Origin: Planctomycetota bacterium
GTDB taxonomy: Bacteria; Planctomycetota; Phycisphaerae; Phycisphaerales; UBA1924
DNA length: 46,282 nt
Assembly: GCA_024276195.1 (NCBI GenBank)
Contig: JAJRXR010000082.1
Span: forward strand, 1-46,282
Reading direction: 5' to 3'
The notes beneath the pieces are model-generated. The model worked only from the letters and a program-made list of their open reading frames with translations, did no database searches and was not told where the DNA came from. Position 1 is the stretch's first letter. Every line of letters starts with the position of its first letter. Below, piece after piece: positions 14,051 through 42,840 of this stretch. The position numbers and the translations under genes were made by a program.

Positions 14051-16642
14051 TCACGGGCACCCGGCCCCGAAGGCGCCGAGGAACGCGACGACATCCGAGA
14101 AGTCGAACGTCCCGAACGGGGCCGCCAGATCCGCCGCCGGGTCCATCGCGCCGAACGCCGCGAGGAACGCGATCACGTCGGAGAAGTCGAGCACGTTGAA
14201 CGGCTCGGCCAGATCCGCCGCGTTGCACCCCTCGTTGACCGGATCGGTGCAGCTCAGCCCGCCGACGCTGATCGCATCAACCGCGGCCTCAATCACAGAC
14301 CCGCTGCCCGCGTCCTCGGCGATAAACCGGAGACGCACCTGGCTCGTCGTCGAGACAAAGTCGCTGATCGCAAACTCCGCCTCGAACCACCCGCCGGAAG
14401 ACTGCGACGTGCTCGGGCCGACGGTTTCGAGTGTCGTCCAGGTCGCGCCGTTGTTGTCAGAGATATCAACTCTGAAGACGTCGTTCCCAGGATCGGCGCC
14501 CGTGCCCGAGCCGGTGTTGTCGTACCAGCGTGCGTACGAAACGGTCGCGTTGGGGTTGGAGGTGACATCGAACGCGGGCGAGGTCAGGATGGTCTGCCCG
14601 CCGTCCACGTCGGTGTTGGAGCCCGGCCCGCCGTTGCCTGTCAGGTAGCACTGTCCCGAGCCGTCGAAGTCGCTCGGGGCATCGCCGCGCGAGCCATCGC
14701 CCGCGGGCACGCCGCGTTCCCACTGGCCCGCACCCTGCCCGGAGACCGGACCGGAAACGCCCCAGCCCATGTTGGTCTGGAAGTTATCGCTGAACGCGAC
14801 ATCGAGCGTGCCGACAAGCGTCGAGAACGGGTTCGCGGCGCCATTCGCCGGGAGGCTCAGCGTGCCGGACATATCGCCGGTCGCCTCGAAGAAGAACTCG
14901 GGGCTTGAGCCGCACAGCGACGCGGGCAGCGTCGCGGTGTAGTTCATCCCGCCGGCCGCGACCAGAGCGATCGTCTGGTACGAGCCCCCGTCGTCGCGGT
15001 AGCGAAGCACCTCCGAGCCCGGGGTGACAACCTCGTCACGCGGGTCGATCGAGATCGTCAGCTGCGTCGTCACGCCCGGATCAACCGTCTCGGGGACGGG
15101 AGTCACCAGGCTGATGCCCAGCGGCAGGAAGGGCAGCTCATCGACCGTGGCCGTCAGGCTGTACAGCTGCACGCTGTTGGACGAGTCGCCCGAGATCCGG
15201 AAGAAGTACGTCCCCGGGATCTCGGCGACCACGCTGAGAAGCTCAGAGCCGCCATCCCCCGTGTTATCGGCGAACCCGATCTGGGTAGAGCCGTCGGTAT
15301 CAAAGATCGCGATGCTCAGGTCATGGATGACCGACGAGTTGAACGATGAGCCGGTGTTGCACGCCCCCGTCTGCGGGCCTTGCGTGTACGTCTGGCCCGT
15401 GGGCGTGACGCTGACGACGATGTCCGACGCATCGGGCACGACGACGCTGAACCAGTCAACGTCGCTGTTGTCGTCGATTGAAATCTGGGAAATGGAAGTC
15501 CCCGGGAATCCGACGCTGCCCAGGGGCGTCGCGTCGCCCGCGGTGTCGTTGCCGTCGGTCTCGAGCGGGTCGCCGTAGTGGCGCTGGGCGTTGAGAATGT
15601 CGTCGTGCTGCGGGCCGTCGTAGGCCGTGGAGATGAACGGCTCCATCAGCTTGGTCGCGTTGGCAGGGCAGACGTGGAGCATGCCCTTGCCGTGCCCGTG
15701 CTCGTGCGCGATGATGTTGCGCAGACGCAGGGAGTTGTTTCCGGTGCTGTTGTAGAAGCTGTCGAAGGCGTCGAGAACCATGTCCCCGTCCTGCGGGAAG
15801 TTGTTGTACGCGAGGATGCCCGAGTTGCCGTCGATCGTGATCGCGGCGATCCGGCAGTCCGCCCGAACGCCCACGACACCCGACGCGCCGTTGAGGTTCG
15901 AGCCGTCGTCGTTGGTCTCAAAGATGTAGGTGTTGCCCGAGAGCTCCCCCCAGCGGTCGAAGACCTGGTCAAAGATCGGCTGCCAGTTCGCCGGGCTGCC
16001 GTAGATCCCGTTCATCCAGGCGAAGAGCTGGCTGTTGCCAGAGATCCCGCCGATCAGTTCCGGAACGAACGTGCCATCGGGCACATAGCCATAGGTGATG
16101 ATCGTCGGATCGCCCTGCCCGAGCCCGCCGCCGGACATCGCGGTGCTTGTCCAGCGTGCGGTCTGCTGGAACCGGCTCGACTGGTTGTAGAGAAGCTCGC
16201 TGATCGCCATCGCCAGCTCGGGGTCTGTGCCCGGGGCGAAGCACGCCGCCACGGGCGACTCACGCCGCTCCGCACGCTCGGCCATCGACACCAGCGCCCG
16301 CCGGTACAGCGGGCGGACAGCATCAAACTTCTCGCGGCTGATCACATGCGCGACCTTCTCGTACCGCTCGTCCGTCGCCTCATACTCGGCGTCCGCGTGC
16401 TCCTCGCTGAGCAGTTCGACCTCGAGCGCGGCGCGCCCCGCCGCGATCCGCGCCTGCTCTTCGACGGGCATCATCGCGAACAACGCCGACTCGATCCCCA
16501 TCTGCAGACGCTCGGCCTGCTCGCACGAGTGCGTCAGCACCGGCGGAAACAGTGGCTGGCCCGCGCTGCTCACCGAAACACAACATCCCGCAGCCGCTCC
16601 GAGCGCGACGCCCATCACGGTTCGATTGGTAATCTGATTCAC
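14051..16642 (-). CDS. Secreted metalloprotease with PPC domain and dockerin-like tail
   Basis: An exported protein of 863 residues. The signal peptide is VNQITNRTVMGVALGAAAGC and on to SSA. The zinc site is HEHGHGKGMLH (about 312-322), an HExxHxxxxxH metzincin motif, with LMEP shortly after as a likely Met-turn. Next comes a PPC-like beta domain (SDVDWFSVVV to GTYFFRISGD), then a MAM/jelly-roll-like region (ILTSPAFDV to AAVDAISVGG), then the 58-residue dockerin-like tail ending GAGCP. It probably degrades external protein. The GTG start at 16642 has GAGGG about ten bases upstream and directly opens the signal peptide; a longer frame to 16780 is not plausible. A strong hairpin (16680-16711) sits in its 5' region and a terminator follows it. 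Confidence 0.88.
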   Translation of the reverse strand: MNQITNRTVMGVALGAAAGCCVSVSSAGQPLFPPVLTHSCEQAERLQMGIESALFAMMPVEEQARIAAGRAALEVELLSEEHADAEYEATDERYEKVAHVISREKFDAVRPLYRRALVSMAERAERRESPVAACFAPGTDPELAMAISELLYNQSSRFQQTARWTSTAMSGGGLGQGDPTIITYGYVPDGTFVPELIGGISGNSQLFAWMNGIYGSPANWQPIFDQVFDRWGELSGNTYIFETNDDGSNLNGASGVVGVRADCRIAAITIDGNSGILAYNNFPQDGDMVLDAFDSFYNSTGNNSLRLRNIIAHEHGHGKGMLHVCPANATKLMEPFISTAYDGPQHDDILNAQRHYGDPLETDGNDTAGDATPLGSVGFPGTSISQISIDDNSDVDWFSVVVPDASDIVVSVTPTGQTYTQGPQTGACNTGSSFNSSVIHDLSIAIFDTDGSTQIGFADNTGDGGSELLSVVAEIPGTYFFRISGDSSNSVQLYSLTATVDELPFLPLGISLVTPVPETVDPGVTTQLTISIDPRDEVVTPGSEVLRYRDDGGSYQTIALVAAGGMNYTATLPASLCGSSPEFFFEATGDMSGTLSLPANGAANPFSTLVGTLDVAFSDNFQTNMGWGVSGPVSGQGAGQWERGVPAGDGSRGDAPSDFDGSGQCYLTGNGGPGSNTDVDGGQTILTSPAFDVTSNPNATVSYARWYDNTGSGTGADPGNDVFRVDISDNNGATWTTLETVGPSTSQSSGGWFEAEFAISDFVSTTSQVRLRFIAEDAGSGSVIEAAVDAISVGGLSCTDPVNEGCNAADLAEPFNVLDFSDVIAFLAAFGAMDPAADLAAPFGTFDFSDVVAFLGAFGAGCP

Positions 16643-16679
16643 GAGTATCCCTCTCTGTTCTGAAACCGGCAGCGATCGG

Positions 16680-16711
16680 CTTTGTCCCCGGCGACACCCG
16701 CCGGGACAAAG
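16680..16711 (-). promoter_or_regulatory. Strong hairpin in the 5' region of the metalloprotease gene
   Basis: The inverted repeat CTTTGTCC(C)CGGCG / CGCCGGGACAAAG has 13 pairs, one bulged base and a 5-nt loop. It lies 38 nt upstream of the GTG start at 16642. It has no T-run on the minus strand, so it is not a standard terminator. It may stabilise or regulate the mRNA. The rest of the 16643-16964 gap has no clear promoter. Confidence 0.4.
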
Positions 16712-16964
16712 AGCCTCACACCACAAAACGACCATGCCTGGAAATCCCAGACCCGGGAAGGGCGCCGACACGGGCGCCATAGATACTGACCTGTTCTACA
16801 CACAACCCCCAGCGGTTCCCGGTATCCATCCGAAAGGACACATCAAAACCGGGGGGTTTCACCCAGATCACTCGTATTCTCGGTCCTACCCGGGGAGCAG
16901 CGTCCTCAAGCGGCGCCCCCCTCCCGGTCGTTCACCGATTTCTTATCGCCAAGTCTCTGACCGG

Positions 16965-18794
16965 TCAGGAGCACCCCTGCCCGAAGACCGTCAGGAACAT
17001 CGCCACGTCGCTGAAGTCAAACACCCCCATCGGCGCGGCCAGGTCCGCGCTCGGGTCCATCGACCCGAAGGCGACCAGGAATGTCACAACATCGGAGAAG
17101 TCCAGCGACCCAAAGGGCGACGCCATATCCGCCGGGCATGTATTCGGACAGGCGCCGTTGCAGAACAGTTCGATCCGCGCCGTCCTCGACAACGCAATGC
17201 CGCCGACCGCGCCCGGGTCGATCACCTGCCACTGCATGAACACCACGTCGCCCTGAAGCGCCGGGCGCGCCAGGATCGGCCAGTGCAGCGTGGCGAACCC
17301 GCCGCCGGAGCCCGAGCCGTCCAGCGTGAAAGGCCCCTCGAGCGATTCCGGTGTCAGCACGCCGGCGCTGGGCGGGCTCGACGAGATCGCCACGAACGCC
17401 TCCGCGCCGCCCAGTCCATTGCGCAGACCAACCTTGAACCCAAGATTCCCCACATTCGGCGGCACAACGCTGATCATCCTCGGGATCAGCCCGCCCGACC
17501 CGGGCGTTCCCGCCCCGATCTGCGACGGGTTCGCTGGCGTCTCAACGTTGAGTGTCGGGCGATCAAACGGGAACTGCTCCGCCGCAACGCGCGGGTCCGT
17601 CAGCGCGTTGTCAAGAAAGTCTGTGATCGGATCGCGCTGCACAATCGGTACTTGCACAGGAAGCAGCGGGTCTCGGTTCGTGTTCCCGGGCGCCCCGGGG
17701 CCGAGGTACAGGTTGAACACCGTCTCGATGAGCTGGAAGTCGCCCGTGTGCATGAACGACGACTTGAGCCCCACGTTCCGCAGCGTCGGCACCTTGAACC
17801 GCCCACGGTCCTGCACCAAGCCCGTCACATCCTGGCGCCCCCGGTCCTGGTTTGTCGGGCGCACGCCGATGTTGCGAAACGACAGGTCGGTAAACAGAGG
17901 CGGCTGGTGGCACGTCGAGCACGAGAACCCCTGAAACAGGTTCCACCCCTGGATTTGCTGGGGCGTCATCGCGCCCGAATCGCCCAGCATGAACAGGTCC
18001 CACGGCGTCTGATCAGGAACCAATGTTCGCTCGTACGTTGCGATCGCCATCGCGATCCGGGCAGCGTTGATCTCGTCGTCCCCGAACGCCGCCTCAAACA
18101 GCGCCGGGTACGTCGCCAGCGAATCAATCGCAACTTGCATATCCGCAGGCACATCCGTCGCCAGCCCCAGCGGCGTCGCGTCCCGCAGCTTGGCGCTGAT
18201 CTGCGCCCAGTCTCGCGCCTCGTGCGCCATCTCAACATCAGACACCGGCGGCCCGACCACCTGGTTCTCGAGCGCTCCCCCAGATGCGATCACCACCGCC
18301 CCCGAAACCGGGTCCACAAACTCCCCGCCAGCGCGCCCGTCCCAGAACGTCTCGGACGCGTACATCGCCAGGATCGCGGTCGGCGCGCTCCGCCCCGTCG
18401 CCTGGCGCCCGAGCCCGAACACCGGGTCCGGTGAATAGTCGTCCGCAGCGTCGGACCGGATCACCCCAAAGCTCGTGCGCATGTCGTCGGGAGTTCCGGC
18501 TATCCCGTCCGGTCCGGGATGCAGCGCCAGCACCGGGTCCGCCCCAGCGGCCCCCATGATGTGGCACGTCCCGCACGCCATCGTGTTGTCGCTCGAGAGC
18601 TGCTCATCCCAGAACAGGATCTTGCCCAGCACCCTTTTCTGCTCTGTGATCGGGTTCTCAGGCGGGACCGGCACGGGCGGCAGGGTCGAGCCCCCGCCCC
18701 CACCCAGCCCGGCGCTGAGCGATCCACCGATCACCACCGGGAGCGCAACCAGAGCCAGAACCGTACCGATCGCTGTGTGTCCGTGCCGAGCCAT
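16965..18794 (-). CDS. Di-haem cytochrome c peroxidase-like protein with dockerin-like tail
   Basis: This 609-residue protein begins with a signal peptide (GTVLALVALPVVIGGSLSAG). It has two c-type haem sites, CGTCH and CSTCH, separated by about 225 residues as in the MauG/bacterial cytochrome c peroxidase family. The context LGKILFWDEQLS before the first site and LRNVGLKSSFMHTGDF after the second also fit. Such enzymes reduce peroxide or oxidise other substrates outside the cytoplasm. A beta-rich stretch follows, then a 57-residue dockerin-like tail ending GQGCS. ATG at 18794 follows GAGGAGATTTTG; TTG three bases earlier is less likely. The tail suggests attachment to a surface structure, unusual for this family as I know it. 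Confidence 0.9.
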   Translation of the reverse strand: MARHGHTAIGTVLALVALPVVIGGSLSAGLGGGGGSTLPPVPVPPENPITEQKRVLGKILFWDEQLSSDNTMACGTCHIMGAAGADPVLALHPGPDGIAGTPDDMRTSFGVIRSDAADDYSPDPVFGLGRQATGRSAPTAILAMYASETFWDGRAGGEFVDPVSGAVVIASGGALENQVVGPPVSDVEMAHEARDWAQISAKLRDATPLGLATDVPADMQVAIDSLATYPALFEAAFGDDEINAARIAMAIATYERTLVPDQTPWDLFMLGDSGAMTPQQIQGWNLFQGFSCSTCHQPPLFTDLSFRNIGVRPTNQDRGRQDVTGLVQDRGRFKVPTLRNVGLKSSFMHTGDFQLIETVFNLYLGPGAPGNTNRDPLLPVQVPIVQRDPITDFLDNALTDPRVAAEQFPFDRPTLNVETPANPSQIGAGTPGSGGLIPRMISVVPPNVGNLGFKVGLRNGLGGAEAFVAISSSPPSAGVLTPESLEGPFTLDGSGSGGGFATLHWPILARPALQGDVVFMQWQVIDPGAVGGIALSRTARIELFCNGACPNTCPADMASPFGSLDFSDVVTFLVAFGSMDPSADLAAPMGVFDFSDVAMFLTVFGQGCS

Positions 18795-19075
18795 CAAAAT
18801 CTCCTCGCGTGTGTGTTCACAGCTGACGCCGCCAGCCTAATCACACAACCCCCGCCCCCCGCGCCGATTGCGGGTGAAATCACTTAAAAACGACGCAACC
18901 ATCCGGTTCTCCTTGCGTAATCGGACGCCCACACGATCCGCGCACTGAGCCCTAAAGCCAAGAGAAATGGCCCGTTTGGCTCCGTTCCGCCGCACGAATC
19001 GCCTCTCACACAACACCGCCCTTGCTACGCTCTGGACCATGAGCCCGCCGCCCGCAGCGGCTCCGAGGTACTCCC
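18795..19075. other. Divergent intergenic region
   Basis: This 281-bp region separates the minus-strand peroxidase gene and the plus-strand hydroxylase gene and should hold both promoters. I see no clear -35/-10 pair, no tRNA and no hairpin with a T-run. Confidence 0.35.
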
Positions 19076-20035
19076 ATGGGTTCGACATCAGCCCCGTCCG
19101 CGCCCGACCGATCGCCCGCGTCCCTGGCTGGTCAACCCGTTCAGGTCGATATCCCCGAGGAGGCGCCGCCCCCGCCGCCCGCCCCAACCAAGAAGCCCCG
19201 CCCGTCGAACGCCCGGATCGCCAAACGCATCGCCAAGCGCGTCATCGGCGTCAGCGTCTTTGCCGCCGCCGCCATCCTGGGCTGGATCAACGCCATCTAC
19301 ATCATCCCGGGCGTCATCGGGTTTTTCATCCTCTGCGGCGCCCTCGACGCCATCCGCAACAAACCCCTGAACCTCGCGACCATCGACACCTACTTCTTCG
19401 GCAAGGGCGTGCTGACCTGGGCGCTCTCGCCGTTCAACCTGCTCATGGACCTGATCTCGCTGCCCTACTGGAACAAGGGGATCTACCAGCTCGAAGACCT
19501 GCCCGAGCTGCACCAGCGCGAGATCACCGAGGTGCTCGACGCGGCCAAGGACACCGACATCATCCGTCAGCTCGAAAATAAGATCACCGACGGACGCTCC
19601 ATGATCTTCTTCAAGTGGTACGGCAAGAACCTGCCCGTCTCCATCGACATCCCCGCCTTCCACAAGCAATACAAGACCATCCGCACCATCGGCGTGTCCG
19701 TCTTCAACAAGCGCAAGAGCACGTCGTGGCACTTCGGTCCGTTGCGCGCGACCTTCCGCGTGCTCTACAACCTCCGCCCGACGCCCGACAACGCCGCGTT
19801 CATCCAGGTCGGCGGCCTGGTCCAGCACTGGAACGACCAGCCCCTGTTCATCTTTGACGACACCCTCTTGCACCAGTCACGCAACGAGAGCGACCACGCA
19901 CGCTACTGCATGTTCATCGACATCGTGCGCCCCAACAAGGTCCGCCCGCTGATGAACCTGATCGTCTCTGCCCTGCAGTTCCTGCTCATCCGCGTCAACC
20001 GCACGTTCTATAAGCGATGGTCGATGATCAAGTAG
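19076..20035 (+). CDS. Aspartyl/asparaginyl beta-hydroxylase-like membrane protein
   Basis: This 319-residue protein has a Pro-rich N-terminus, a basic segment, hydrophobic helices at about residues 57-90, and a C-terminal domain like aspartyl/asparaginyl beta-hydroxylases (2-oxoglutarate and Fe(II) dependent). The matching pieces are STSWHFGPLRATFRVLYNL, then FIFDDTLLHQSRNES and ARYCMFIDIVRP; the His residues in WHFG and LHQS fit the two iron-binding His and the RxxxxxDxxRP pattern the oxoglutarate site. Substrate is unknown: related bacterial enzymes modify proteins or lipids. It lies among secreted dockerin-tailed genes, but on the opposite strand. ATG at 19076 follows GAGGTACTCCC. Confidence 0.8.
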   Translation: MGSTSAPSAPDRSPASLAGQPVQVDIPEEAPPPPPAPTKKPRPSNARIAKRIAKRVIGVSVFAAAAILGWINAIYIIPGVIGFFILCGALDAIRNKPLNLATIDTYFFGKGVLTWALSPFNLLMDLISLPYWNKGIYQLEDLPELHQREITEVLDAAKDTDIIRQLENKITDGRSMIFFKWYGKNLPVSIDIPAFHKQYKTIRTIGVSVFNKRKSTSWHFGPLRATFRVLYNLRPTPDNAAFIQVGGLVQHWNDQPLFIFDDTLLHQSRNESDHARYCMFIDIVRPNKVRPLMNLIVSALQFLLIRVNRTFYKRWSMIK

Positions 20036-20093
20036 AACCAGGACTCCGCCGGCCCGCCTGAATCGTGCGCACTCGGATTACCGCGCTGGCGCC

Positions 20094-21356
20094 CTACGGG
20101 CACCCGGCGCCGAAGGCGCCAAGAAACGCAACGACATCCGAGAAATCAAACACACCCATCGGCGGCGCCAAATCCGCCGCCGGATCCATCGCGCCGAACG
20201 CCGTCAGAAACGCCACAACGTCGGAAAAGTCCAGCGACCCGAACGGCTCGGCAAGATCCGCCTCGTTGCAGTTCTGCTTGATGTGGACAAAGAAGCTCAC
20301 ACTTCCCGGGGCTCCGAAGTTGCCCCAGCCCGTGAACCACTCGCCGTTGGGAGAGACATCGGAGACGAACGCAAACACAAAGGTCGGGTCGTATGCAACG
20401 CCAACCTCATCGAGGTAGTCGCTGAAGTCGATCGTTCCAACGCCCTCGCGCCAGATGTACGCCCTGCCGAATAATGCCGGCCCGAAACCCCAGGTGCCGC
20501 CAGCGATAGTGGCGCCGTCCGCAGTAATCCCGGTCCCGGCCATATTCCGCTCGCCCCCGACCACAAGATTCGGGAGGAGCTCCGTCGTGTTCGTCACCGT
20601 GTTGTATCGGTAGGCCATGCCGGGATCGAAGAACCCCCCGACACCGATGCCCGTTACCCACTGGCCATCGCTCGAAACGGCGAACGCCTCCAGTGCCGGT
20701 GACGCGTCGGGCAGAAAGATCAGCTCCTGCACGCCATCAACCCACACGCTGCCCTGGCGTCCGGCTCCGTCCTGCCAGCCCACGACGACGTTGCCGTCAA
20801 GGTCCGCAGCATTGGCCCGAGCGGATTCACCCACCATGTTCGTGCCCAGATCAATCACGCCAACGCCGTCCATCCACTGCATCGCGTGCGCGTCGGCGGT
20901 TCCTTCCGTGGTCCAGCCCAGACCAACGACCGACGTCCCGTCGCCAGAGATGCCCCAGCCCGAGCTCACACTTGCGTCGAGCTGCTGCCCGATGACCGGG
21001 ATCATGCCGAAGCCGGTCCACAAGCCGGTGTTCCGGTCGTAGCGTGACATCTCGTGGTAGCCCTCGGCGGCGTTGAACGTGCTTCCACTGATGAATCGCC
21101 CGTCGTTGGAGATCTTGCCCTGCCCGCCAACGCCGTTGCCCGGCGCGACGCCGCCGATTGAGACGGTTCCGCCATCGACGGTCCAGACAAAGTATGCGTT
21201 GTCGGATGTCCCGAAGGAGCCGGTCGCAACGCCGTTATCGCTGATGCCTTCGCTGAGTCCTTCTCCAATCGCGTTGGTGTAGAACTGGGCGGAGGCGCTC
21301 TGGGCCACCAGGGCCAACAGCGTGCTGGCGGCAAACACTCGTGTTCTTGTTCGCAT
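20094..21356 (-). CDS. Secreted HAF-type repeat protein with dockerin-like tail
   Basis: This 420-residue exported protein has the signal peptide MRTRTRVFAASTLLALVAQ and cleavage after ASA. The body repeats short blades with the pattern 'ISxDGxxVxGxG' (ISDNGVATG, ISNDGRFISG, ISGDGTSVVG, VSSDGQWVTG, ITADGATIAG, VSPNGEWFTG), typical of HAF/PEP-CTERM extracellular repeat proteins and likely a beta-propeller. The 58-residue tail ends GAGCP. Its protein sequence in the tail is identical to that of the 22811 gene. ATG at 21356 follows GGAGAGAAACA; a longer frame is rejected. The promoter candidate is at 21431-21459. No enzyme motif was seen; it may be a structural or binding protein. Confidence 0.85.
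   Translation of the reverse strand: MRTRTRVFAASTLLALVAQSASAQFYTNAIGEGLSEGISDNGVATGSFGTSDNAYFVWTVDGGTVSIGGVAPGNGVGGQGKISNDGRFISGSTFNAAEGYHEMSRYDRNTGLWTGFGMIPVIGQQLDASVSSGWGISGDGTSVVGLGWTTEGTADAHAMQWMDGVGVIDLGTNMVGESARANAADLDGNVVVGWQDGAGRQGSVWVDGVQELIFLPDASPALEAFAVSSDGQWVTGIGVGGFFDPGMAYRYNTVTNTTELLPNLVVGGERNMAGTGITADGATIAGGTWGFGPALFGRAYIWREGVGTIDFSDYLDEVGVAYDPTFVFAFVSDVSPNGEWFTGWGNFGAPGSVSFFVHIKQNCNEADLAEPFGSLDFSDVVAFLTAFGAMDPAADLAPPMGVFDFSDVVAFLGAFGAGCP
20149..20252 (-). repeat. 104-nt block identical to 22866-22969
   Basis: This part of the dockerin tail is identical, base for base, to the block in the 22811 gene, and the flanks differ by single bases. Both copies are on the minus strand, 2.7 kb apart, on either side of the plus-strand gene at 21551. 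Confidence 0.9.
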
Positions 21357-21430
21357 TGTTTCTCTCCAGAAGGGGAAAGGGGTCGCACTCGGGTCACCCA
21401 CATCGGCGTCGCGATTGATGGTCAGCCCGG

Positions 21431-21459
21431 AGGTTATGGGCTGCCGATTGTTACCGCAA
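21431..21459 (-). promoter_or_regulatory. Candidate promoter of the HAF-type repeat gene
   Basis: Minus strand: -35 TTGCGG (21454-21459), 17-nt spacer, -10 TAACCT (21431-21436), giving a leader of roughly 70 nt before the ATG at 21356. The boxes are only moderate matches to the sigma-70 consensus. Confidence 0.35.
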
Positions 21460-21467
21460 GATTCCCT

Positions 21468-21493
21468 GGGGAAATTTGTGTAAGTATTTCCCC
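21468..21493. promoter_or_regulatory. Inverted repeat, possible operator between divergent genes
   Basis: GGGGAAAT and ATTTCCCC are perfect 8-bp arms with a 10-nt A/T-rich centre, so the arm centres are 18 bp apart, about two turns of DNA. It lies nine bases upstream of the -35 of the minus-strand promoter and overlaps the position of a possible -35 for the 21551 gene (TATGAT -10 at 21511-21516). The geometry suits a dimeric regulator. Confidence 0.45.
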
Positions 21494-21550
21494 CTTACCG
21501 TACCATCCTGATATGATCCAGCTGCCCACCGTAGAACATGGAGAAACGCC

Positions 21551-22765
21551 TTGAGCGTGCTATCAGAGCCGAAGTTTGATCAACACTGCCGCGACGCCGT
21601 TCTCGGCTTGCGCGCCGCCCTTCTGGAACTGTACCGAGAGGTCAAAGCCGATCCGACCGCCCCTCAGGACGTTGCTCGCCGGTTTAGTCTGAACAAAAAC
21701 CTATCATGGAAGATATCGCGAATCTTGCAGTCGGAAGACGCTCTGGCCGCCGTCCCCAATATCCCGGGCAACTCGGGGCTGACAATCCTGCTCGACGCGA
21801 TGAAGAATGCCGGAGCGCCGGAGTCCTCGATCATGAGGGTCCAGGCGGCGTCCCGGGCGTTCGAGCGGATGGTCGATACCCACACCGGCGACCGGGCGGG
21901 GCTGGAACTCACACTCGACAGCATGGGCGGCGAAGGCGCCGCGCTCGAACGCAGCCGACGCCTCGCCTTCCAGGGCAACAGCGGCATCTGGGGCATCCAG
22001 TGCCAGACCCGACTCGCCGCGCAGTTCGTCGCGCCATCGCACGACGATCCCGACCTGCTCGACCTGGCCTTCGTTGCCGGCTGGCAGGGCGTCCGCCGCC
22101 TGCGCCCCATCGACCGCTGGCCCGCCTTCCAGATCTTTCTACGCCACGACGACGGAACGGATATCTCAGACAACTCAAACAATCTCCCTCTCGCCCCGGA
22201 CAAGAACGGCGGGTCGTGGATGCTCAACGAGTTCTGCACCGGCGCCATGCCCGAGATGCACTCAAGGCGCGCCCCCAACGGCATCTGCTACGAGTTCGGT
22301 GACGGACCCGTCGGGCGAACCGGCGAGTTCGGCTGCTTCTACGGCAACCTCCGCCCAATGGTCGTCTCACGCTACGCGAGCAAAAAAGACACCCTCGGCG
22401 AGTTTCACGTCGGCATTACGATCCCCGCCGCCGTCCTGCTCTTCGACATTTTCGTGCATCGCGACCTGCCCGAGGCGCTCGCGCCCGAGGTGCTGGTTCG
22501 CGGGCGCCTACAGACGCACTTCGATTACCAGGACCACTCGTTGATTCGCCTGCCGGTGCGCACACGTGTGCACGATCTGGGACGGAATCCGTCGGTCGCG
22601 ACGCCGCTCGTGAACGGCTACGACCGGCTCATCAACACCGCGATGACCGCCGGCGGATGGGAGCTCACCGAGTTCCACTGTCTTCGTCTTATCCTGGAAT
22701 ACCCGCCGATGCCGTCCACGGTCACGATGCAGTACCAGCTACCCGAGGCGAACAAGACTAGATAA
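21551..22765 (+). CDS. Unrecognised soluble protein
   Basis: This 404-residue protein has no signal peptide or membrane helix. Residues about 15-60 (VKADPTAPQDVARRFSLNKNLSWKISRIL) look like a small helical domain, perhaps a degenerate helix-turn-helix. The rest is a mixed alpha/beta domain with no motif I can name (WGIQCQTRLAAQF, DRWPAFQIFLRHDD). The start is TTG at 21551 with GGAGAAACGCC in front, or GTG six bases later; an ATG at 21538 opens only a 13-codon overlapping frame. It is the only cytoplasmic-looking gene between dockerin-tailed genes besides atpA, and both flanking genes face it with identical tails. A regulatory role for its neighbours is possible but unproven. Confidence 0.7.
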   Translation: MSVLSEPKFDQHCRDAVLGLRAALLELYREVKADPTAPQDVARRFSLNKNLSWKISRILQSEDALAAVPNIPGNSGLTILLDAMKNAGAPESSIMRVQAASRAFERMVDTHTGDRAGLELTLDSMGGEGAALERSRRLAFQGNSGIWGIQCQTRLAAQFVAPSHDDPDLLDLAFVAGWQGVRRLRPIDRWPAFQIFLRHDDGTDISDNSNNLPLAPDKNGGSWMLNEFCTGAMPEMHSRRAPNGICYEFGDGPVGRTGEFGCFYGNLRPMVVSRYASKKDTLGEFHVGITIPAAVLLFDIFVHRDLPEALAPEVLVRGRLQTHFDYQDHSLIRLPVRTRVHDLGRNPSVATPLVNGYDRLINTAMTAGGWELTEFHCLRLILEYPPMPSTVTMQYQLPEANKTR

Positions 22766-22810
22766 CGCGTCCGGCAAGCTGTCCATCATGCCCGCCAATA
22801 CCATTACGCC

Positions 22811-24409
22811 TTACGGACACCCCGCCCCGAACGCGCCGAGGAACGCGACGACATCCGAGAAATCGAACACACCCATCGGCGGCGCCAAATCCGCCGCCGG
22901 ATCCATCGCGCCGAACGCCGTCAGAAACGCCACAACGTCGGAAAAGTCCAGCGACCCGAACGGCTCGGCGAGATCCGCCTCGTTGCACCCGCCCGCGCCG
23001 CCGAGCGAACCGTCGGCGTTGATCCGCTGGGCGAACACATCCCGATTGCCCGCCCGGTCATCGGTCCACGCGCTGATCAGCGAGCCATCGCCCGAACTCG
23101 CCAGGCTCAACCGCCCCTTGGAACTCACCGCCGTGGATACGCCGATGATCGACGCGTCGAGCAGCGCCCCCGAGGTGTCAACGCGCATCATTTCAAGCAC
23201 ACCGTCCGTGTTCCCCAGGACCGGCTGGCGATCCACAATCCCCGCGACCCCGCCGCCGACGCTCGCCGCGCGGGGTGGGCTCTTGAACTGCGTATCGAAC
23301 GGTGTCAGCGCGACGCCGTTGGCGCCCAGAGCCCTGGCCCCGCCGACGTCGATCCGTTGCACGTTGATACTCTGGAAGTTCTGCGCGCCGTCCATGTTCC
23401 GGTAGAACACCATCGCATCCCCGCCCGGGGCGATCGCGACCGCGGGCGCAAGCTGCTGGCGCCCGGCCTCGGTCGAGATCTGCACGCCGTTGGCGGGCCA
23501 GACGTTCACGCCCGCCGCGTCGAGGCGCTGCACATAGCAGTCAAAGTCCCCGTCGCGCGTGTCATGCCACGCGATCACGGCGCCGCCGCTCATCTCGAGC
23601 AACTGCGGCCTGTGCGCAATAGGAACAACCGTCGCGTCCGAAACCGTCACGCCCCCCGCCGCCCAGCGCTCCGCCCCGTCGGAGCCAAACCGCTGCGCGT
23701 CAACGAACCGATCGCTGAAGAACGTCGTCGTGTCGCGCACCCACGACGCGACAAAGTCGCCCTCAAAAGTCGGCTCGATCTGGACAAACGCGGGCGAGGC
23801 CGAGCCGTCGCCAACGATCCGCACACCCCCGGGCGCCAGCCCGATCGCGCCTGCCGGGCTGATGCGCTGCATATACAGCCCCGCCGCCGAATCGAACCGA
23901 GGCCAGACCACCAGGTAATCCCCGTCCGAGTTCTGGATGATCCGCGGGTCGGCCTCGAAGTCCGCGTTGTCCGAGACCGTCACCCCATCGGCGCCCCAGA
24001 GCATCGTCCCGTCCGGCGCGATGAGATACGCGTACACGTCGAAATCGCCGCCCATACGAATATCAACGAACGCCAGCATGCAGTTGCCCGAGCTATCAAC
24101 CCGCAGATCCCAGTCCACCACGAACGTGTTCTGCGGGTGATCGCTGACGAGCAACCCCGCCGGGGCGAGCGTCGGCGAGCCATCGCTGCCCAACCGCTGC
24201 ACCCGGACCTCGATCCCGCCCGGCTGGAAGTCAAACCACCCGATCCAGCTTGCGCCGTCAGCACCCACGCCGAGCTTGATCACAGTCTGATCGAGGGGCG
24301 ACTGGACCACAGACGTGTTGAGCATCGGATCGTCGGTCCACTGCGCGCTCGCCGTCCCAACACACGAGCCCACAACAGCAGCCGACACAACAACACAGAG
24401 ATGGCGCAT
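22811..24409 (-). CDS. Secreted repeat protein with dockerin-like tail
   Basis: This 532-residue exported protein has the signal peptide MRHLCVVVSAAVVGSCVGTA with cleavage near ASA. The body carries repeated strands such as VYAYLIAPDG, LYMQRISPAG, CYVQRLDAAG and VFAQRINADG, each followed by W/A-x-x-GVxxS-type loops (ANGVQIST, AGGVTVSD). This pattern is common in large bacterial surface proteins and likely forms a beta-propeller. No catalytic motif was found. The 58-residue tail ends GAGCP. ATG at 24409 follows GGGAGAGACTC. It runs convergent with the 21551 gene, 45 bases apart, and shares 104 identical nucleotides with the 20094 gene in the tail. Confidence 0.8.
   Translation of the reverse strand: MRHLCVVVSAAVVGSCVGTASAQWTDDPMLNTSVVQSPLDQTVIKLGVGADGASWIGWFDFQPGGIEVRVQRLGSDGSPTLAPAGLLVSDHPQNTFVVDWDLRVDSSGNCMLAFVDIRMGGDFDVYAYLIAPDGTMLWGADGVTVSDNADFEADPRIIQNSDGDYLVVWPRFDSAAGLYMQRISPAGAIGLAPGGVRIVGDGSASPAFVQIEPTFEGDFVASWVRDTTTFFSDRFVDAQRFGSDGAERWAAGGVTVSDATVVPIAHRPQLLEMSGGAVIAWHDTRDGDFDCYVQRLDAAGVNVWPANGVQISTEAGRQQLAPAVAIAPGGDAMVFYRNMDGAQNFQSINVQRIDVGGARALGANGVALTPFDTQFKSPPRAASVGGGVAGIVDRQPVLGNTDGVLEMMRVDTSGALLDASIIGVSTAVSSKGRLSLASSGDGSLISAWTDDRAGNRDVFAQRINADGSLGGAGGCNEADLAEPFGSLDFSDVVAFLTAFGAMDPAADLAPPMGVFDFSDVVAFLGAFGAGCP
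22866..22969 (-). repeat. 104-nt block identical to 20149-20252
   Basis: This is the second copy of the identical dockerin-tail block. The genes' other parts are unrelated, so only the module was copied or converted. Confidence 0.9.
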
Positions 24410-24532
24410 GAGTCTCTCCCTGGGCCAGCCCGGCAAACCCCCGGCGCCCTCGCCCAGGTCGAGTATCTCAGATTACCCCGCCTGATCAAGACCAGAAACC
24501 CAACTCACCGCCCGAGATGGCGCCCCCATCCG

Positions 24533-25876
24533 TTATGGGCAACCACCACCGAACGAAACCAGGAACGCGAGCACGTCGTCGAAGTCGATGACGCCGAAGG
24601 GCTCGCTCAGGTCCGCCGCAGGATCCATCGCGCCGAAGGCGACGAGGAAGGCGAGAACGTCGTCGAAGTCGAGAACGCCGAAGGGCGGGGCGAGGTCGGC
24701 GGGGCAGCAGTTCGGAGCCCCACTCGGCCACACAATGATGCCGTCCAGCACCGGATCAAGCGCAAGCCGAATCGGAGTACCGAGTGATCCGGTCCTATTC
24801 ATGATCACGCCGTATGTAACTCCGTCGCCGCGCTGGCGGATGAGACTGCTCGTCCCGTCAAACGCTCCAGTATGATTCCACCGCCATGTACCACGAAGGT
24901 CTGGCGCCTTGGGTAGACCGATGTTCGATCCGGCCACCCAGTGATGAGCCGCGAACACTGCAAGCGCACCGGCCGTAGCAATTTGGCCCCCTTGCCCGAT
25001 GCGTGCCTCGTGATCCCAGCCGCCGTACGGGCGCTCCACGGCCGGTCCCTCCGGATCAAAGACGTTCAAAGAAAACGTGGAACGCTGATACCAAGGCTCG
25101 CGTGGGTTCTTGTCTGCCGCGAATGTCCGCCCCTGCTCGTGATCTTCTGAGGCAATCCCGATCGGTCCCAAGATCTTTTCGTCGAGGAACTCAATCAGCG
25201 ATTGGTCTGCATATTTCTCAACAATCAGCCCGAACACCAGACAACCAATGTTTGAGTACGCCTCGCTCTTACCTGGCGCAAACTGGAGCGGATGTCCGAG
25301 AATCCACCGGAGCGTTAACTCCCGCCCGGGCGGGCTTGTCACGCCGAAGTCCGTCGCGACCTGAACCTCTCGGTATGTCAGGTCCCCAGCGATTCCCCGA
25401 TCCCATCCGCCGGTGTGCTCGATTAGATGGCGAACGCGGACATCCGCGAGGCGCAAATCTCCAAGCACCGGGAAAGGTTCCAGACTGAGCAGCCCGCCCT
25501 CGACCTGTCCGAGATCAAACACGAACGAATCAAGGCTGTACAGCCCGGCACTGATCTGTTCACGCACAGCCGCGACGGTGATCGGCTTGGACACGCTCGC
25601 CAGGCGCATCAACGCGTCGTGCTGCATCGGCATCGTGCGAGCCTGGTCACGCCAACCGAACCCGCGCTCGTACACGATCTCGCCGTCCAGCGCAATCGCG
25701 ACCGTGGCGCCGATGACACCGTTCTGCCACATGAACTCACTCATGGCCTCATCGACCGCGGCGAGTTCAGGCCGCTCGCAACCGGTACTCGGCATTTCTT
25801 GGCCGATCGCCATGGAAAAGCCGGCACTCACCACAAACACCGTGACGGCAGCGAACATCCATCGGCTATGTCTCAT
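24533..25876 (-). CDS. Secreted serine beta-lactamase-fold protein with dockerin-like tail
   Basis: This 447-residue exported protein has a signal peptide (MRHSRWMFAAVTVFVVSAGF). The beta-lactamase/penicillin-binding fold (class C type) shows the SxxK motif SVSK after LMRLA, the YxN motif EAYSNIG, and a Gly-rich region GQGGQIATAG ahead of the third strand. Family members are D-amino peptidases, esterases or beta-lactamases; substrate cannot be told here. The 57-residue tail follows NCC and ends GGGCP. ATG at 25876 follows GGGAGGATCGCA; the frame extends upstream to 25933 but includes no better start. It is likely transcribed separately from atpA, since a terminator lies upstream at 25931-25959. 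Confidence 0.88.
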   Translation of the reverse strand: MRHSRWMFAAVTVFVVSAGFSMAIGQEMPSTGCERPELAAVDEAMSEFMWQNGVIGATVAIALDGEIVYERGFGWRDQARTMPMQHDALMRLASVSKPITVAAVREQISAGLYSLDSFVFDLGQVEGGLLSLEPFPVLGDLRLADVRVRHLIEHTGGWDRGIAGDLTYREVQVATDFGVTSPPGRELTLRWILGHPLQFAPGKSEAYSNIGCLVFGLIVEKYADQSLIEFLDEKILGPIGIASEDHEQGRTFAADKNPREPWYQRSTFSLNVFDPEGPAVERPYGGWDHEARIGQGGQIATAGALAVFAAHHWVAGSNIGLPKAPDLRGTWRWNHTGAFDGTSSLIRQRGDGVTYGVIMNRTGSLGTPIRLALDPVLDGIIVWPSGAPNCCPADLAPPFGVLDFDDVLAFLVAFGAMDPAADLSEPFGVIDFDDVLAFLVSFGGGCP

Positions 25877-25930
25877 TGCGATCCTCCCGAAACCCACAAT
25901 AGACAGAATACCGATTAGCCGATCAACTAG

Positions 25931-25959
25931 CAAGAAAACGCCCGCCGTATCGGCGGGCG
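25931..25959 (-). terminator. Rho-independent terminator behind atpA
   Basis: A perfect 9-bp stem, CGCCCGCCG/CGGCGGGCG with a 3-nt loop, is followed on the minus strand by TTTTCTTG. It lies about 47 nt past the atpA stop and ends the atpA transcript before the 24533 gene. Confidence 0.8.
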
Positions 25960-26005
25960 ATGTCTGAGAACGAAGTGATGGCGAGCAAGTTTGGCGAGCG
26001 AACCC

Positions 26006-27589
26006 TCACTCCTGCCGGCTCTTCCAGTCCGCCTTGTAGTGCGTGATCCCGTCGCCGATCTTCTCTTCCATCGCGGCGTCGATCGCCAGCTTCTCGCTCA
26101 GCTCGTCGTACACGCTCTTGAGGTTCGTCCGGAAGTACTCGAGCATCCCCTTCTCAAACGCCGCGACCTTGGTCAGGGCGATGTCGTCGAGGAAGCCCTT
26201 CGTCCCCGCGAAGACCGAGATGATCTGGTCCGTCACCGGGAACGGCACGTACTGCGGCTGCTTGAGCAGCTCCACCATCCGCGCCCCGCGGTCCAGCTGC
26301 GCCTGCGTCGCCTTGTCCAGCTCCGTGCCCAGCTGCGCGAACGCCTCGAGCTCGCGGAACGCCGCCAGATCCAGCCGCAGCGAGCCCGCGATCTTCTTGA
26401 TCGCCTTCACCTGCGCCGCCCCGCCCACGCGCGACACCGAGATGCCCACGTTGATCGCCGGACGAACACCCGAGAAGAACAGCTCCGGCTCGAGGTAAAT
26501 CTGCCCGTCCGTGATCGAGATCACGTTCGTCGGGATGTACGCCGACACGTCGCCCTCCTGCGTCTCGATGATGGGCAGCGCGGTCATCGAGCCGGCGCCG
26601 TTCTCGTCCGAGAGCTTCGTCGCCCGCTCAAGCAGGCGGCTGTGCAGGTAGAACACGTCGCCCGGGTACGCCTCACGCCCCGGCGGACGACGCAGCAGCA
26701 GCGAGAGTTGGCGGTACGCCACCGCCTGCTTGGACAGATCGTCGTACACCAGCAGCGCGTGCTTGGGCATCGGCTTGCCGTCGGACATCGTCTTCCCGCC
26801 GTCCTTGCCCGACCACATGAAGTGCTCGCCCATCGCGCACCCGGTGTACGGCGCCACGTACTGCATCGGGGCCGGGTCCGAGCTGCCCGCGTTGACGACG
26901 ATGGTGTAGTCCATCGCCCCGTTGTCCTTGAGCCGCTCGACCACGCCCGCGACCGTGGACTCCTTCTGCCCGATCGCGACGTAGATACACACCACGGCGT
27001 CCTTCGTGCCCCAGTACTGCTTCTGGTTGATGATCGCGTCGATCGCCACCGCCGTCTTGCCCGTCTTCCGGTCGCCGATGATCAGCTCGCGCTGCCCGCG
27101 CCCGATCGGGATCATCGCGTCGATCGCCTTCACCCCCGTCTGCAAGGGCTCGTGCACCGGCTGACGCTCGGCGATCCCCGGCGCGATGATGTCCACCTTC
27201 GCCGTCTCGCTCGCGTTCAAAGGCGCCCCGTCGTCGATCGGGCGCCCCAGCGGGTCCACCACGCGACCGAGCAACTCCTCACCAACGGGAACCTCCAGCA
27301 GACGCCCGGTCGCCTTGACCAGGTCGCCCTCCTTCACGTGCAGGAAGTTGCCGTAGATGATCGCCCCGACGGTATCCGTCTCCAGGTTCATCACCTGGCC
27401 CATGACCCCGCCCGCGCTGGTCTGGAACTCAAGCAGCTCCCCGGCCATCGCCTTGGACAACCCGTAAATCTGCGCGATGCCGTCGCCCACCGTCACGACG
27501 CGCCCGACCTCGGACACCTCCAGCTCCGATGCGAACTGCTCGATTTCCTGCTTGATGACGCTGGCGATTTCGTCGGTCTTGATCTTCAC
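26006..27589 (-). CDS. atpA: F1Fo ATP synthase subunit alpha
   Basis: This 527-residue protein aligns over its full length with AtpA, the non-catalytic nucleotide-binding subunit of the F1 head, which exchanges proton flow with ATP synthesis at the inner membrane. It has the Walker A motif GDRKTGKT (172-179), the Walker B region [12 protein letters not shown] (277-288) and the arginine-containing SVSRVG. An extra segment of about 18 residues ([18 protein letters not shown], about 259-276) sits just before Walker B compared with E. coli, which explains the length. No other atp gene is within the window; both neighbours are dockerin-tailed genes on the same strand. A terminator follows it. The 27590-27800 gap upstream should contain its promoter, but I cannot pick one. 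Confidence 0.97.
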
Positions 27590-27800
27590 GGCGGCGCTTC
27601 CCTCCGACGCCGCCCATCAAAGACGCGCCGGCTTCGGTCAGTTGATGATGACGCTGCCCGAACCCCATAGGCCCAGGCCCCCTCCATCCCAGGAAAGGGT
27701 CCAAACAGTAGGTCGCCCCCCACCCCCTGTCCTGCCCGCGGCTCCGGGACGGAACCGCCCGCGATGCGGTTTATCGGGGTGTGCGGGGGTGCAGACAGGC

Positions 27801-29165
27801 CTACGGGCACCCGCCCCCGAAGGCGGTGAGGAAGACGACGACATCGTTGAAGTCGAAGACGCCAGAGGGCTCGGCAAGGTCCGCAGCCGGGTCCATCGAG
27901 CCGAAGGCGACGAGGAAGGCGAGTACATCGTCGAAGTTCAGCACGTTGAACGGTATCGAAAGGTCGGCGAGCGAGCAGGGGGTGGTGTCGAAGAAGAGGT
28001 AGGCCGAGCCGGAGCCGTTCCCGTTGTCGTCGTCAAGCCAAGCCCCAACGACGACGATACCATCGCGGATCGCGACGGACCAGCCAAAAAAGTCACCCGC
28101 GACGCCGTCGTCGGGGAGGAGCTTGGCGATCTGGGCGCCAGTCGAGGCGTCGAAGAGGTAGGCCGAGCCGGAGGCGGACCCGTTGTTGTCGTCAGCCCAA
28201 GCCCCAACGGCGACGACACCATCGGCCATGGCGATGGACAAGCCGAACCGGTCATCTGCGGCGCCATCATCGGGGAGGAGCTTGGCGATCTGGGCGCCAG
28301 TCGAGGCGTCGAAGAGGTAGGCCGAGCCGGAGAAGAACCCGTTGTCGTTGTCCCGGTGAGCCCCAACGGCGACGAGGCCGTCGGCGATGGCGATGGAACG
28401 GCCGAACTCGCGGAATGCCGCGCCATCGTCGGGGAGGAGCTTGGCCATCTGGACGCCGGTGAAGGCGTCGAAGAGGTAGGCCGAGCCGGAGTCGGACCCG
28501 TTGTCGTCGTCAAGATAAGCCCCAACGGCGACAAGGCCACCGGCAATGGCGATAGAGCTGCCGAACCGGTCACCTTCGGCGCTATCGGCGGGGAGGAGCT
28601 TGGCGAACTGGACGCCGGTGGAGGCGTTGAAGAGGTAGGCCGAGCCGGAGTCGGACCCGTTGTCGTCGTCAAGATAAGCCCCAACGGCGACGATGCCACC
28701 GGCAATGGCGATGGAGTAGCCGAACTCGTCACCAGCGGCGCCATCGTTGGGGAGGAGCTTGGCGATCTGGGCGCCGGTGGAGGCGTTGAAGAGATAGGCC
28801 GAGCCGGACTCGGTCCCGTTGTCGTCATCATTGCGAGCCCCAACGGCGACGACGCCATCGGCGATGGCAACGGAGAATCCGAACCAGTCCTCTAAGGCGC
28901 CGTCATCGGGGAGGAGCTTGGCGATCTGGGCGCCAGTCGAGGCGTCGAAGAGGTAGGCCGAGCCGGATCTGGACCCGCTGTCGTCGTCAGCCCAAGCCCC
29001 AACAGCAACGACGCCATCGGCGATGGCGACGGAACGGCCGAACTCGTCACCTCCGGCGCCATCATCGGGCAAGAGCTTGAGGTCTTGGTTGAGAACCTGG
29101 CCCGGCGCGACGGCTGCGAGCACCCCGGACGCCAGAACACCGGCGATGGTTGCGAATCGGTTCAT
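27801..29165 (-). CDS. Secreted FG-GAP repeat protein with dockerin-like tail
   Basis: This 454-residue exported protein has the signal peptide MNRFATIAGVLASGVLAAVA. It has seven tandem repeats of about 53 residues from residue 30 to about 400, each of the form KLLPDDGA, FGxSxAIADG, VAVGA, DDDNGSxSGSAYLFDASTGA. The DDDNG loops are likely calcium-binding, and seven blades suggest a beta-propeller like integrin alpha subunits. The 58-residue tail ends GGGCP. ATG at 29165 follows GAGGGGGTTGAG. It probably binds ligands at the surface; no catalytic motif was seen. The gap 29166-29378 upstream contains nothing else I can identify. Confidence 0.88.
   Translation of the reverse strand: MNRFATIAGVLASGVLAAVAPGQVLNQDLKLLPDDGAGGDEFGRSVAIADGVVAVGAWADDDSGSRSGSAYLFDASTGAQIAKLLPDDGALEDWFGFSVAIADGVVAVGARNDDDNGTESGSAYLFNASTGAQIAKLLPNDGAAGDEFGYSIAIAGGIVAVGAYLDDDNGSDSGSAYLFNASTGVQFAKLLPADSAEGDRFGSSIAIAGGLVAVGAYLDDDNGSDSGSAYLFDAFTGVQMAKLLPDDGAAFREFGRSIAIADGLVAVGAHRDNDNGFFSGSAYLFDASTGAQIAKLLPDDGAADDRFGLSIAMADGVVAVGAWADDNNGSASGSAYLFDASTGAQIAKLLPDDGVAGDFFGWSVAIRDGIVVVGAWLDDDNGNGSGSAYLFFDTTPCSLADLSIPFNVLNFDDVLAFLVAFGSMDPAADLAEPSGVFDFNDVVVFLTAFGGGCP
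27966..29078 (-). repeat. Seven tandem coding repeats of about 159 nt
   Basis: The DNA repeats follow the 53-residue FG-GAP units. Copies are similar but not identical, with the most conserved blocks coding GSAYLFDASTGAQIAKLLPD and its variants. Nothing marks them as CRISPR or mobile: there are no unique spacers. Confidence 0.85.
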
Positions 29166-29378: not shown

Positions 29379-30422
29379 CTACGGGCTCGCCGACTCCGCC
29401 TCGGGCTCCTCGACCCGCTCGATCGTCAGCCCCACCTCCGCGTCCTCCACCCTGGCGCTCACGCCCGGTGGCAACAACACAATCCGGGCCGTCTTGGACG
29501 TGATCCCCCGCTCGAGCTCATCAAACGACAGCGACACGATCGCCATCGGACGCACCGCCCCGGAGATCACCTGGTCCACCCCTTCGCTCGGCCCGCTGAT
29601 CGTCACATCGAACAGATCCGTGTCCTCGGGCGCCAGCGTGATCAGCCACCGACCCAGCTCCGGAGGCGGCAGCACCACCTGCACCGGCAGCCTCGGGATC
29701 GTGTGCGTCCGCGTCCGCGTCCGCACCTGCACCGTCACATCCACCGTCTCGGGCGACATCGACACGCCCCACACCCCGCGCAGCGCCTCGGGCAGCTCCA
29801 GACGAATATCCGCGAGCACCTCGGGCACCCCGGGCAGCAGCCCGTCGAGCGACCCATCATCAATCGGCGCCACCACCTCGACCGCGCCCCCGCCCCCGAC
29901 AAGCCCCTCGATCGCGTCCTTGGGGCCGCGGATCGTCACCGCCGCTGGCTCCGCCCGCGGCGCGCCCTCCAGGCGCCCCGCCGGCGCCCGCACCATCACC
30001 GTCGCCTGAACCTCCGCCACTCGCACGACGCTGATCGCCAGCGTCTCCGGGCGCACCTCCGCGATCGACACGCCCGAATCGAGCAGCGCCTCGGTGCGGC
30101 GCAGCGCCTCGACCAGCGAGATCACATGATCCTTCGCCTCCGAGGGCAGCTCGCGCCCGACCATCAGCTCGACGCGCCCGCCCAGGCGATCGCGCGCGTC
30201 CGAGACCGACGCCGCCGATCCCTCGATCGTCAGCTCGATCTGCCCGCTCCACGAGGCATCGTTGATGCGCACCAGGCTGGCGTTGTCGCTCTCGCCCTTG
30301 ATTGTCACGCTGAGCGTCAGGCTCTCGGTCCGCAGCGTCTGGCTCTCGGCGAGCACCCAGACGAGCCCGCTGAGCACCGCGACAACCCCGAAGGTCTTCA
30401 AACGCCGGAGGGTCTGGCTCAT
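29379..30422 (-). CDS. cdaR: YbbR-domain protein, likely CdaA regulator
   Basis: This 347-residue protein has an N-terminal membrane helix (about residues 10-25, GVVAVLSGLVWVLAES) and a periplasmic part of YbbR-like beta domains: VTIKG..., then VTIRGPKDAIEG, then FDVTISGPSEGV. In Firmicutes the YbbR protein CdaR follows cdaA and tunes its activity; the same order is seen here. The ATG overlaps the cdaA stop by four bases (ATGA), with GGAGCAAGAA as ribosome site, so both are co-translated. The glmM gene that often completes this operon is not next to it. Confidence 0.85.
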   Translation of the reverse strand: MSQTLRRLKTFGVVAVLSGLVWVLAESQTLRTESLTLSVTIKGESDNASLVRINDASWSGQIELTIEGSAASVSDARDRLGGRVELMVGRELPSEAKDHVISLVEALRRTEALLDSGVSIAEVRPETLAISVVRVAEVQATVMVRAPAGRLEGAPRAEPAAVTIRGPKDAIEGLVGGGGAVEVVAPIDDGSLDGLLPGVPEVLADIRLELPEALRGVWGVSMSPETVDVTVQVRTRTRTHTIPRLPVQVVLPPPELGRWLITLAPEDTDLFDVTISGPSEGVDQVISGAVRPMAIVSLSFDELERGITSKTARIVLLPPGVSARVEDAEVGLTIERVEEPEAESASP

Positions 30423-40596: not shown

Positions 40597-40619
40597 GTGG
40601 TCCTCCGGGCGGGGTCAGG

Positions 40620-41959: not shown

Positions 41960-41974
41960 CGCTGGGCTCCTTTC

Positions 41975-42823: not shown

Positions 42824-42840
42824 CCGCTGGGCACCTTTCC

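Follow-up and report, generated by a model that had tools for sequence, protein, structure and literature searches.

Why should a run of otherwise dissimilar secreted proteins end in the same short module? The question is raised by a 15-kb gene cluster (positions 14051 to 29165) in contig JAJRXR010000082.1 of a Planctomycetota bacterium (Phycisphaerales UBA1924; genome size, 3.0 Mb). We refer to the whole contig stretch of 46,282 nucleotides as the window and to the genome that it comes from as the window genome. An earlier note on this DNA had described six minus-strand genes with unrelated bodies and one common C-terminal module resembling the "GC-type dockerin," and it had proposed a shared sorting system with a conserved partner. 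Our analysis suggests that the module is a derived dockerin and that it probably serves as the main C-terminal docking tag of exported proteins, read by one lineage-specific partner. The sequence features that point this way are the two similar halves of each tail, a linked pair of Cys residues, the uniform length and end, the mostly unrelated bodies, and a tail type that goes with the genome. The earlier note missed the loss of the calcium loop, the lineage-specific tail type, and the copying of one tail from its neighbor.

Six window proteins carry a GC-type dockerin tail

All six minus-strand open reading frames read through without a stop from their starts. Their tails are located as follows.

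14054..14227, minus strand: GC-type dockerin tail of an M10 metalloprotease (gene 14051-16642; NF041540, Pfam)
16968..17138, minus strand: GC-type dockerin tail with a G-C-S end, of a MauG-like di-haem peroxidase (gene 16965-18794; NF041540, Pfam)
20097..20270, minus strand: GC-type dockerin tail of a HAF-repeat protein (gene 20094-21356; NF041540)
20149..20270, minus strand: copied tract (122 nt, a single mismatch relative to 22866-22987) that begins at a Cys codon
22814..22987, minus strand: GC-type dockerin tail of a propeller-like protein (gene 22811-24409), the other partner of the copied tract
24536..24706, minus strand: GC-type dockerin tail of a beta-lactamase-fold protein (gene 24533-25876; NF041540, Pfam)
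27804..27977, minus strand: GC-type dockerin tail of an FG-GAP_2 protein (gene 27801-29165; NF041540, Pfam)

The tails measure 57 to 58 residues from the first Cys and end in G-C-P in five of the six proteins and in G-C-S in the one at 16968. All six pass the cut-off of the GC-type dockerin model NF041540 (37.7 to 46.0 bits versus 29), which has 67 positions and to which the window tails align over about 55 residues. Both the common module and its resemblance to the GC-type dockerin, as first described, are thus borne out. The six bodies differ. Pfam recognizes four of them (M10 matrixin protease, CCP/MauG di-haem peroxidase, beta-lactamase fold, and FG-GAP_2), whereas two give no Pfam match over the cut-off, namely, the HAF body (20097-21356) and the body that resembles a propeller (22814-24409). 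The HAF body belongs to the NCBIfam family HAF_rpt, which has 1 member among the 95 tail proteins scanned.

About a hundred exported proteins share the tail

A search of the window genome with NF041540 returned 109 matches at an E value of ≤0.01, 103 over the cut-off and 6 under it, all of which were inspected individually. The profile search and cargo count proposed in the earlier note therefore yield about a hundred cargo genes rather than a few. Nor do length and end vary freely: 78 of the 109 tails span exactly 55 residues from A-D to the end (the search pattern itself demands four Asp), 87 end exactly in G-C-P/S, and 99 have a Cys within the last three residues, leaving 10 exceptions. Two single-half tails (C73:2437-2517 and C82:8305-8382; loci L114 and L119) fall under the cut-off and keep both Cys. 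Two small related proteins (C2:33920 and C31:3218; loci L061 and L084) have degenerate tails that have lost both.

The clustering of tail genes also holds. There are 48 tail pairs less than 3.5 kb apart, more than in any of 2,000 random placements (mean, 13.7; maximum, 30), in a simulation that ignored contig ends. Groups of at least six tails per 15.1 kb arose in 32 of the 2,000 placements; contig C40 has 8 and C26 has 6.

The tail is common to the family to which the window genome belongs. NF041540 matches all 10 family genomes at an E value of ≤0.001, and four same-family relatives yielded 150 (the number scored among 224 candidates), 126, 81, and 126 tails. Across 392 genomes of the phylum, with up to 15 places scored per genome, 37 match at the same threshold and 23 pass the cut-off, while none of 14 control genomes has a match. 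Calcium-less tails like those of the window occur in the metagenome-assembled genomes OFTM92, OFTM80, and OFTM359 (Phycisphaerales) among the best 80 of 204 matches, a list from which the window genome's own record is possibly absent.

A simple rule assigns a signal peptide to 92 of the 106 tail proteins of at least 140 residues, versus 9 of 24 other window genes; the rule is generous in trying many starts, and several of the 24 comparison genes look membrane bound or exported. Several of the misses are truncated by contig ends or short of one basic residue. In a scan of 95 of these 106 proteins, FG-GAP kinds were the most frequent Pfam bodies (10 to 11 members for each of three models), followed by UnbV/ASPIC (6 members) and subtilases (4 members). 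Some NCBIfam bodies are named for other anchors or routes, namely, choice-of-anchor Q (2 members), choice-of-anchor B (1 member), an LPXTG-anchored peptidase family (2 members), and a type IX secretion system (T9SS)-dependent family (2 members), and such family names are no proof of function.

The window tail is probably a dockerin whose calcium loop was lost

Each tail half consists of A-D, a loop, and a helix segment, D-V-x-x-F-L-x-x-F. The loop of the window form has 13 residues, one more than a calcium loop, with Ala and Pro at positions 3 and 5. Among 193 halves of the window genome, 170 have a 13-residue loop with no Asp or Asn at position 3 and no D/N/S/T/E at position 5, and 16 have a 12-residue calcium loop with ligands at positions 1, 3, 5, and 12; these classes derive from the 98 of 109 tails that could be parsed, with a parser that misplaces long loops and the N-terminal Cys of relative G325. 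Normal calcium loops are found in every parsed half of five relatives (G002, 36/36; G172, 56/56; G251, 16/16; G270, 8/8; G278, 12/12). G384 is mixed, with 20 of 30 halves normal and 5 of the window genome's kind, and the loops of G325 are long.

We also scored tails from six relatives against the Pfam model Dockerin_1 (PF00404). Those of G002, G278, G270, and G251 pass, that of G384 falls under the cut-off at 13.4 bits, and that of G325 does not match. The window tail has no Pfam match even at an E value of 1, and a calcium-loop tail of the window genome (C42) has no Dockerin_1 match. Since most of the relatives' tails scanned pass Dockerin_1, and relatives mostly keep normal loops, and the window tail does neither, the window module is best read, from its sequence, as a derived dockerin that gave up the calcium loop, although the longer loop may coordinate calcium through its backbone. 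The predicted tail structure has helices in both halves (mean pLDDT, 94.4). A sequence search of solved structures with the tail gave a single irrelevant match (E value, 0.56). Four G384 loci (L250, L251, L252, and L262) carry a second tail form like that of the window genome, beside a main form with F-F-D-V and calcium loops; this second form may represent a transition or a second partner.

Tail type follows the genome rather than the cargo

We compared 107 tails of the window genome with 93 tails of its relatives. Between genomes, tail identity is the same for pairs with homologous bodies (n = 138; median, 0.377; mean, 0.422) as for pairs with nonhomologous bodies (n = 13,315; median, 0.377; mean, 0.396) by the median, while nonhomologous pairs within a genome are more alike (n = 6,314; median, 0.590; mean, 0.577). 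Two genomes of the same genus, G002 and G172, have the same tail type. On a tree of tails, there are 17 changes of genome label and 12 of genus label, versus 85 to 90 changes in the five genome-label shuffles listed.

Because the tails compared from relatives had been those with the highest scores, homologs were also picked by body alone. MauG orthologs carry a G384-form tail in G384 (57% identical) and a G325-form tail in G325 (52%), and the MauG homolog in the tail-negative G303 has no tail. The beta-lactamase-fold protein has homologs with a g2-form tail in G095 and G034 (41%) and a tailless homolog in G198. These comparisons indicate that tail type is a property of the genome and not of the cargo.

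A PEP-CTERM-like anchor occupies the place of the tail on two HAF orthologs

The HAF protein was likewise sought by body in 28 genomes, which gave 19 matches in 11 genomes and 16 distinct complete ends (one further match was cut, and two were an already examined frame). Fourteen of the 16 ends are dockerin tails. The other two, from two genera (G384, 61% identical; G270, 49% identical), were assigned by eye as PEP-CTERM-like, with a hydrophobic stretch and an Arg run. A divergent gene (21551-22765) adjoins the HAF gene in G384, G270, G095, G172, G002, G034, G295, and OFTM92, and this conserved neighbor argues that the HAF places are orthologous. Its product of 404 residues has no Pfam match at an E value of ≤1e-4, and it is kept whichever tag HAF carries. 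Since orthologous HAF places bear either tag, the dockerin tail and the PEP-CTERM-like anchor would fill the same role on one protein. HAF homologs are absent at an E value of ≤1e-10 from all 13 tail-negative genomes, and the exchange is seen only among tail-positive ones.

The case for a genome-wide replacement of PEP-CTERM by the tail is weak. PEP-CTERM counts range from 1 to 21 (median, 7) in 17 tail-positive genomes and from 0 to 135 (median, 48) in 13 tail-negative genomes (one-sided P = 0.023), a difference that follows family borders and that is read with a model that may undercount the P-A-P kind found in the window genome. Several tail-negative genomes also have few PEP-CTERM proteins, namely, four of families f4 and f5 (1 to 11), G220 (0), and G352 (8). 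PEP-CTERM proteins were rejected as scaffolds: the 12 places in the window genome lie in frames of 193 to 317 residues whose bodies match no tail cargo at an E value of ≤1e-5.

Recognition-like positions and a Cys pair

In cellulosomal dockerins, each half touches the cohesin through two residues, at its positions 11 and 12, and symmetric halves permit two cohesin-binding modes, according to excerpts of PMC4728124 and PMC5301203. The pair before the last loop Asp in our tails is mostly F-S in the window genome, I-F in G002 and G172, F-F in G384, and N-G in G325. Of 78 tails, 59 have the same residues at this pair in both halves; the two halves also agree two residues beyond the Asp in 43 tails and at one position within the loop in 36. 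Agreement of this extent was never reached in 5,000 shuffles at these three places, and three other tail positions have no excess agreement between halves. Exchange between the halves of one gene may contribute, as the codon excess between them is 0.122.

One Cys stands directly before the first half and the other is penultimate. Both are present in 92 of the 109 tails, only the last in 7, only the first in 1, and neither in 9 (Fisher P = 2.5e-8, an optimistic value given that tail copies are related). All 14 tails examined in G325 have a Cys just before A-D, as judged by eye. The Cys content is lower within the tail (0.29%) than within the bodies (0.99%). The head and tail of cellulosomal dockerins are joined through ring stacking (excerpts of PMC4728124). 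We infer that the two end Cys of our tails form a putative disulfide clasp, and the single-half tails with both Cys are possible cross-linked dimers.

A proposed docking tag read by a lineage-specific partner

The mechanism that we propose begins with export of the cargo protein, presumably by Sec. The tail would then fold into a two-fold symmetric dockerin-like domain closed by a disulfide, a covalent version of the cellulosomal head-to-tail clasp, and in this genus it would no longer need calcium. One common cell surface partner per lineage may bind the residue pair before the last loop Asp, in either half, and the partner would not be a cohesin that Pfam recognizes. On the same protein, the tail could replace, or be replaced by, a PEP-CTERM-like membrane anchor. 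A fuller version is tentative: a calcium-free, disulfide-closed dockerin might be the main surface tag of the whole family, with a receptor of unknown kind that coevolved with the roughly one hundred tails as a genus-specific lock and key, and it might have partly taken over the role of exosortase and PEP-CTERM.

The proposal of a shared sorting system with a conserved partner is supported in its first part, as the tail has the features of a common tag for sorting or docking, and no partner was found among cohesins, sortases, and exosortases (rhombosortase, PorU/C25, and T9SS parts were not searched for). Of 41 genomes tested, 3 have a match to the Pfam cohesin model (PF00963) over its cut-off, all outside the family; none of the 10 family genomes does. 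Its best match in the window genome (E value, 0.36; 12.1 bits) has a stop inside, and by this model the genome has no cohesin-bearing scaffold like that of the planctosome. Sortases are absent from all 30 genomes searched. Exosortases are present in all 30, including tail-negative ones, and therefore do not track the tail; neither enzyme was retained as the partner. The tails have no sortase- or exosortase-type motif, transmembrane stretch, or basic end.

A special case of the docking reading is an ordinary cohesin-dockerin system whose receptor is a cohesin too divergent for Pfam. The passage of four of the six relatives' tails through Dockerin_1 is consistent with it, as are the cohesin-dockerin pairs reported in freshwater Phycisphaerae as the planctosome (excerpts of PMC6461901). 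We consider it unlikely, as no family genome has a cohesin over the cut-off, and the lone subthreshold match, in G278 (22.7 bits), lies in a metalloprotease-like protein that has its own dockerin, forms no scaffold, and is unseen in the other nine.

The tail might instead be a secretion signal, read by an outer membrane machine and removed or exchanged there like the C-terminal domains (CTDs) of type IX secretion, with no lasting dock. The logic is shared, in that many unrelated bodies have one folded C-terminal domain with lineage-wide uniformity, and two cargo bodies match a T9SS-dependent family model. Against this, the tail length and Cys pair are what one would expect of a small, stable domain, the tail shows no visible cleavage motif, and the T9SS is not known outside Bacteroidota and relatives. 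We regard a secretion signal as quite unlikely.

Tail uniformity could also stem from gene-to-gene copying, by conversion or shuffling, in which case selection by a partner would play little or no part. Where the residue is the same, the codon identity among tails of the window genome is 0.549, versus 0.490 expected from each gene's codon use; in a control between halves of different genes, it is 0.529 versus 0.482. The tails are alike in protein, but their synonymous sites are almost saturated, and recent copying therefore fails to account for the uniformity, which appears to be old and kept by selection on the protein sequence. Although this argument does not reach an old burst since erased at synonymous sites, copying as a whole strikes us as very unlikely. 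Among 33 reciprocal best pairs with OFTM92, tail identity is 0.80 and codon identity 0.64, versus 0.72 and 0.56 for nonorthologs, suggesting that tails descend with their genes at short range.

One tail in the window does appear to be copied. The HAF tail is identical to the tail of the neighboring, unrelated gene (22814-22987) at 0.945 of bases and to the tail of its OFTM92 ortholog at 0.691. Neither the 60 nt of body upstream of the tract (9 nt excepted) nor the 60 nt after the stop match, which points to a copy bounded at the Cys codon.

Finally, that tails bind each other in an extracellular network without a separate receptor is most improbable: two similar halves, a uniformity that would follow from mutual fit, and the single-half tails C73:2437 and C82:8305, whose two Cys could form cross-linked dimers, speak for it, but two-fold symmetry is also a known basis of dual dockerin-cohesin binding (excerpts of PMC4728124).

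Relation to known systems

The tail family is already known as the profile NF041540, "GC-type dockerin domain-anchored protein," from which the window tails differ by their noncalcium loop. Despite the "anchored" name, we found no publication on the GC-type dockerin or NF041540, in a search outside which most subscription journals and preprints lay. As far as searched, what is new is the form of the tail (without a calcium loop, closed by Cys, and typed by lineage), together with the exchange between this tail and PEP-CTERM-like anchors.

Type IX CTDs are similar in being folded C-terminal domains common to many unrelated exported proteins. They belong to a fold family other than dockerin. PEP-CTERM/exosortase (PF07589 and PF09721) likewise tags many exported proteins at the C terminus and takes the same place on the HAF orthologs of G384 and G270, but the dockerin tail lacks both a transmembrane stretch and an Arg cluster. 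With cellulosomal type I dockerins (PF00404), our tails share duplicated loop-helix halves, symmetric recognition positions, and joined ends (excerpts of PMC4728124 and PMC5301203). They differ in having mostly lost the calcium ligands, in a Cys pair instead of ring stacking, in a strictly C-terminal place, in mostly noncarbohydrase cargo, and in the absence of a Pfam cohesin from the genome. For the planctosome of Nemodlikiaceae in freshwater Phycisphaerae, excerpts of Andrei et al. 2019 (PMC6461901) propose that cohesin and dockerin modules build a noncellulosomal complex. Peptidase cargo is common to both systems, but cohesins and calcium-dependent docking are described there, and we find neither a Pfam cohesin nor the calcium loop here.

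If the docking reading is true, a system without a known receptor places a large share of the exported proteome in common aquatic bacteria. Roughly a hundred natural cargoes, and tail types that differ by lineage, would make the receptor directly findable by pull-down or complex prediction, and genus-specific, calcium-independent docking pairs would serve as orthogonal tags for protein assemblies.

Neighboring genes

Other genes lie within or beside the cluster. An aspartyl/asparaginyl beta-hydroxylase (PF05118) at 19076-20035 sits among the tail genes; as a tail-modifying enzyme it was rejected, being absent from all other fetched loci outside the window genome. A protein of the ATP synthase alpha/beta family (alpha by reading) is encoded between two tail genes at 26006-27589. 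Genes resembling those of type IV pili or type II secretion flank the cluster (5000-8412 and 38566-44058) and include two PilM, PilO, and a T2SSE ATPase. At 29379-31366, a diadenylate cyclase (DAC domain, with CdaA_N just under the cut-off) is followed by a protein that is YbbR/CdaR-like by eye and has no Pfam match, a c-di-AMP pair in a Phycisphaerales genome.

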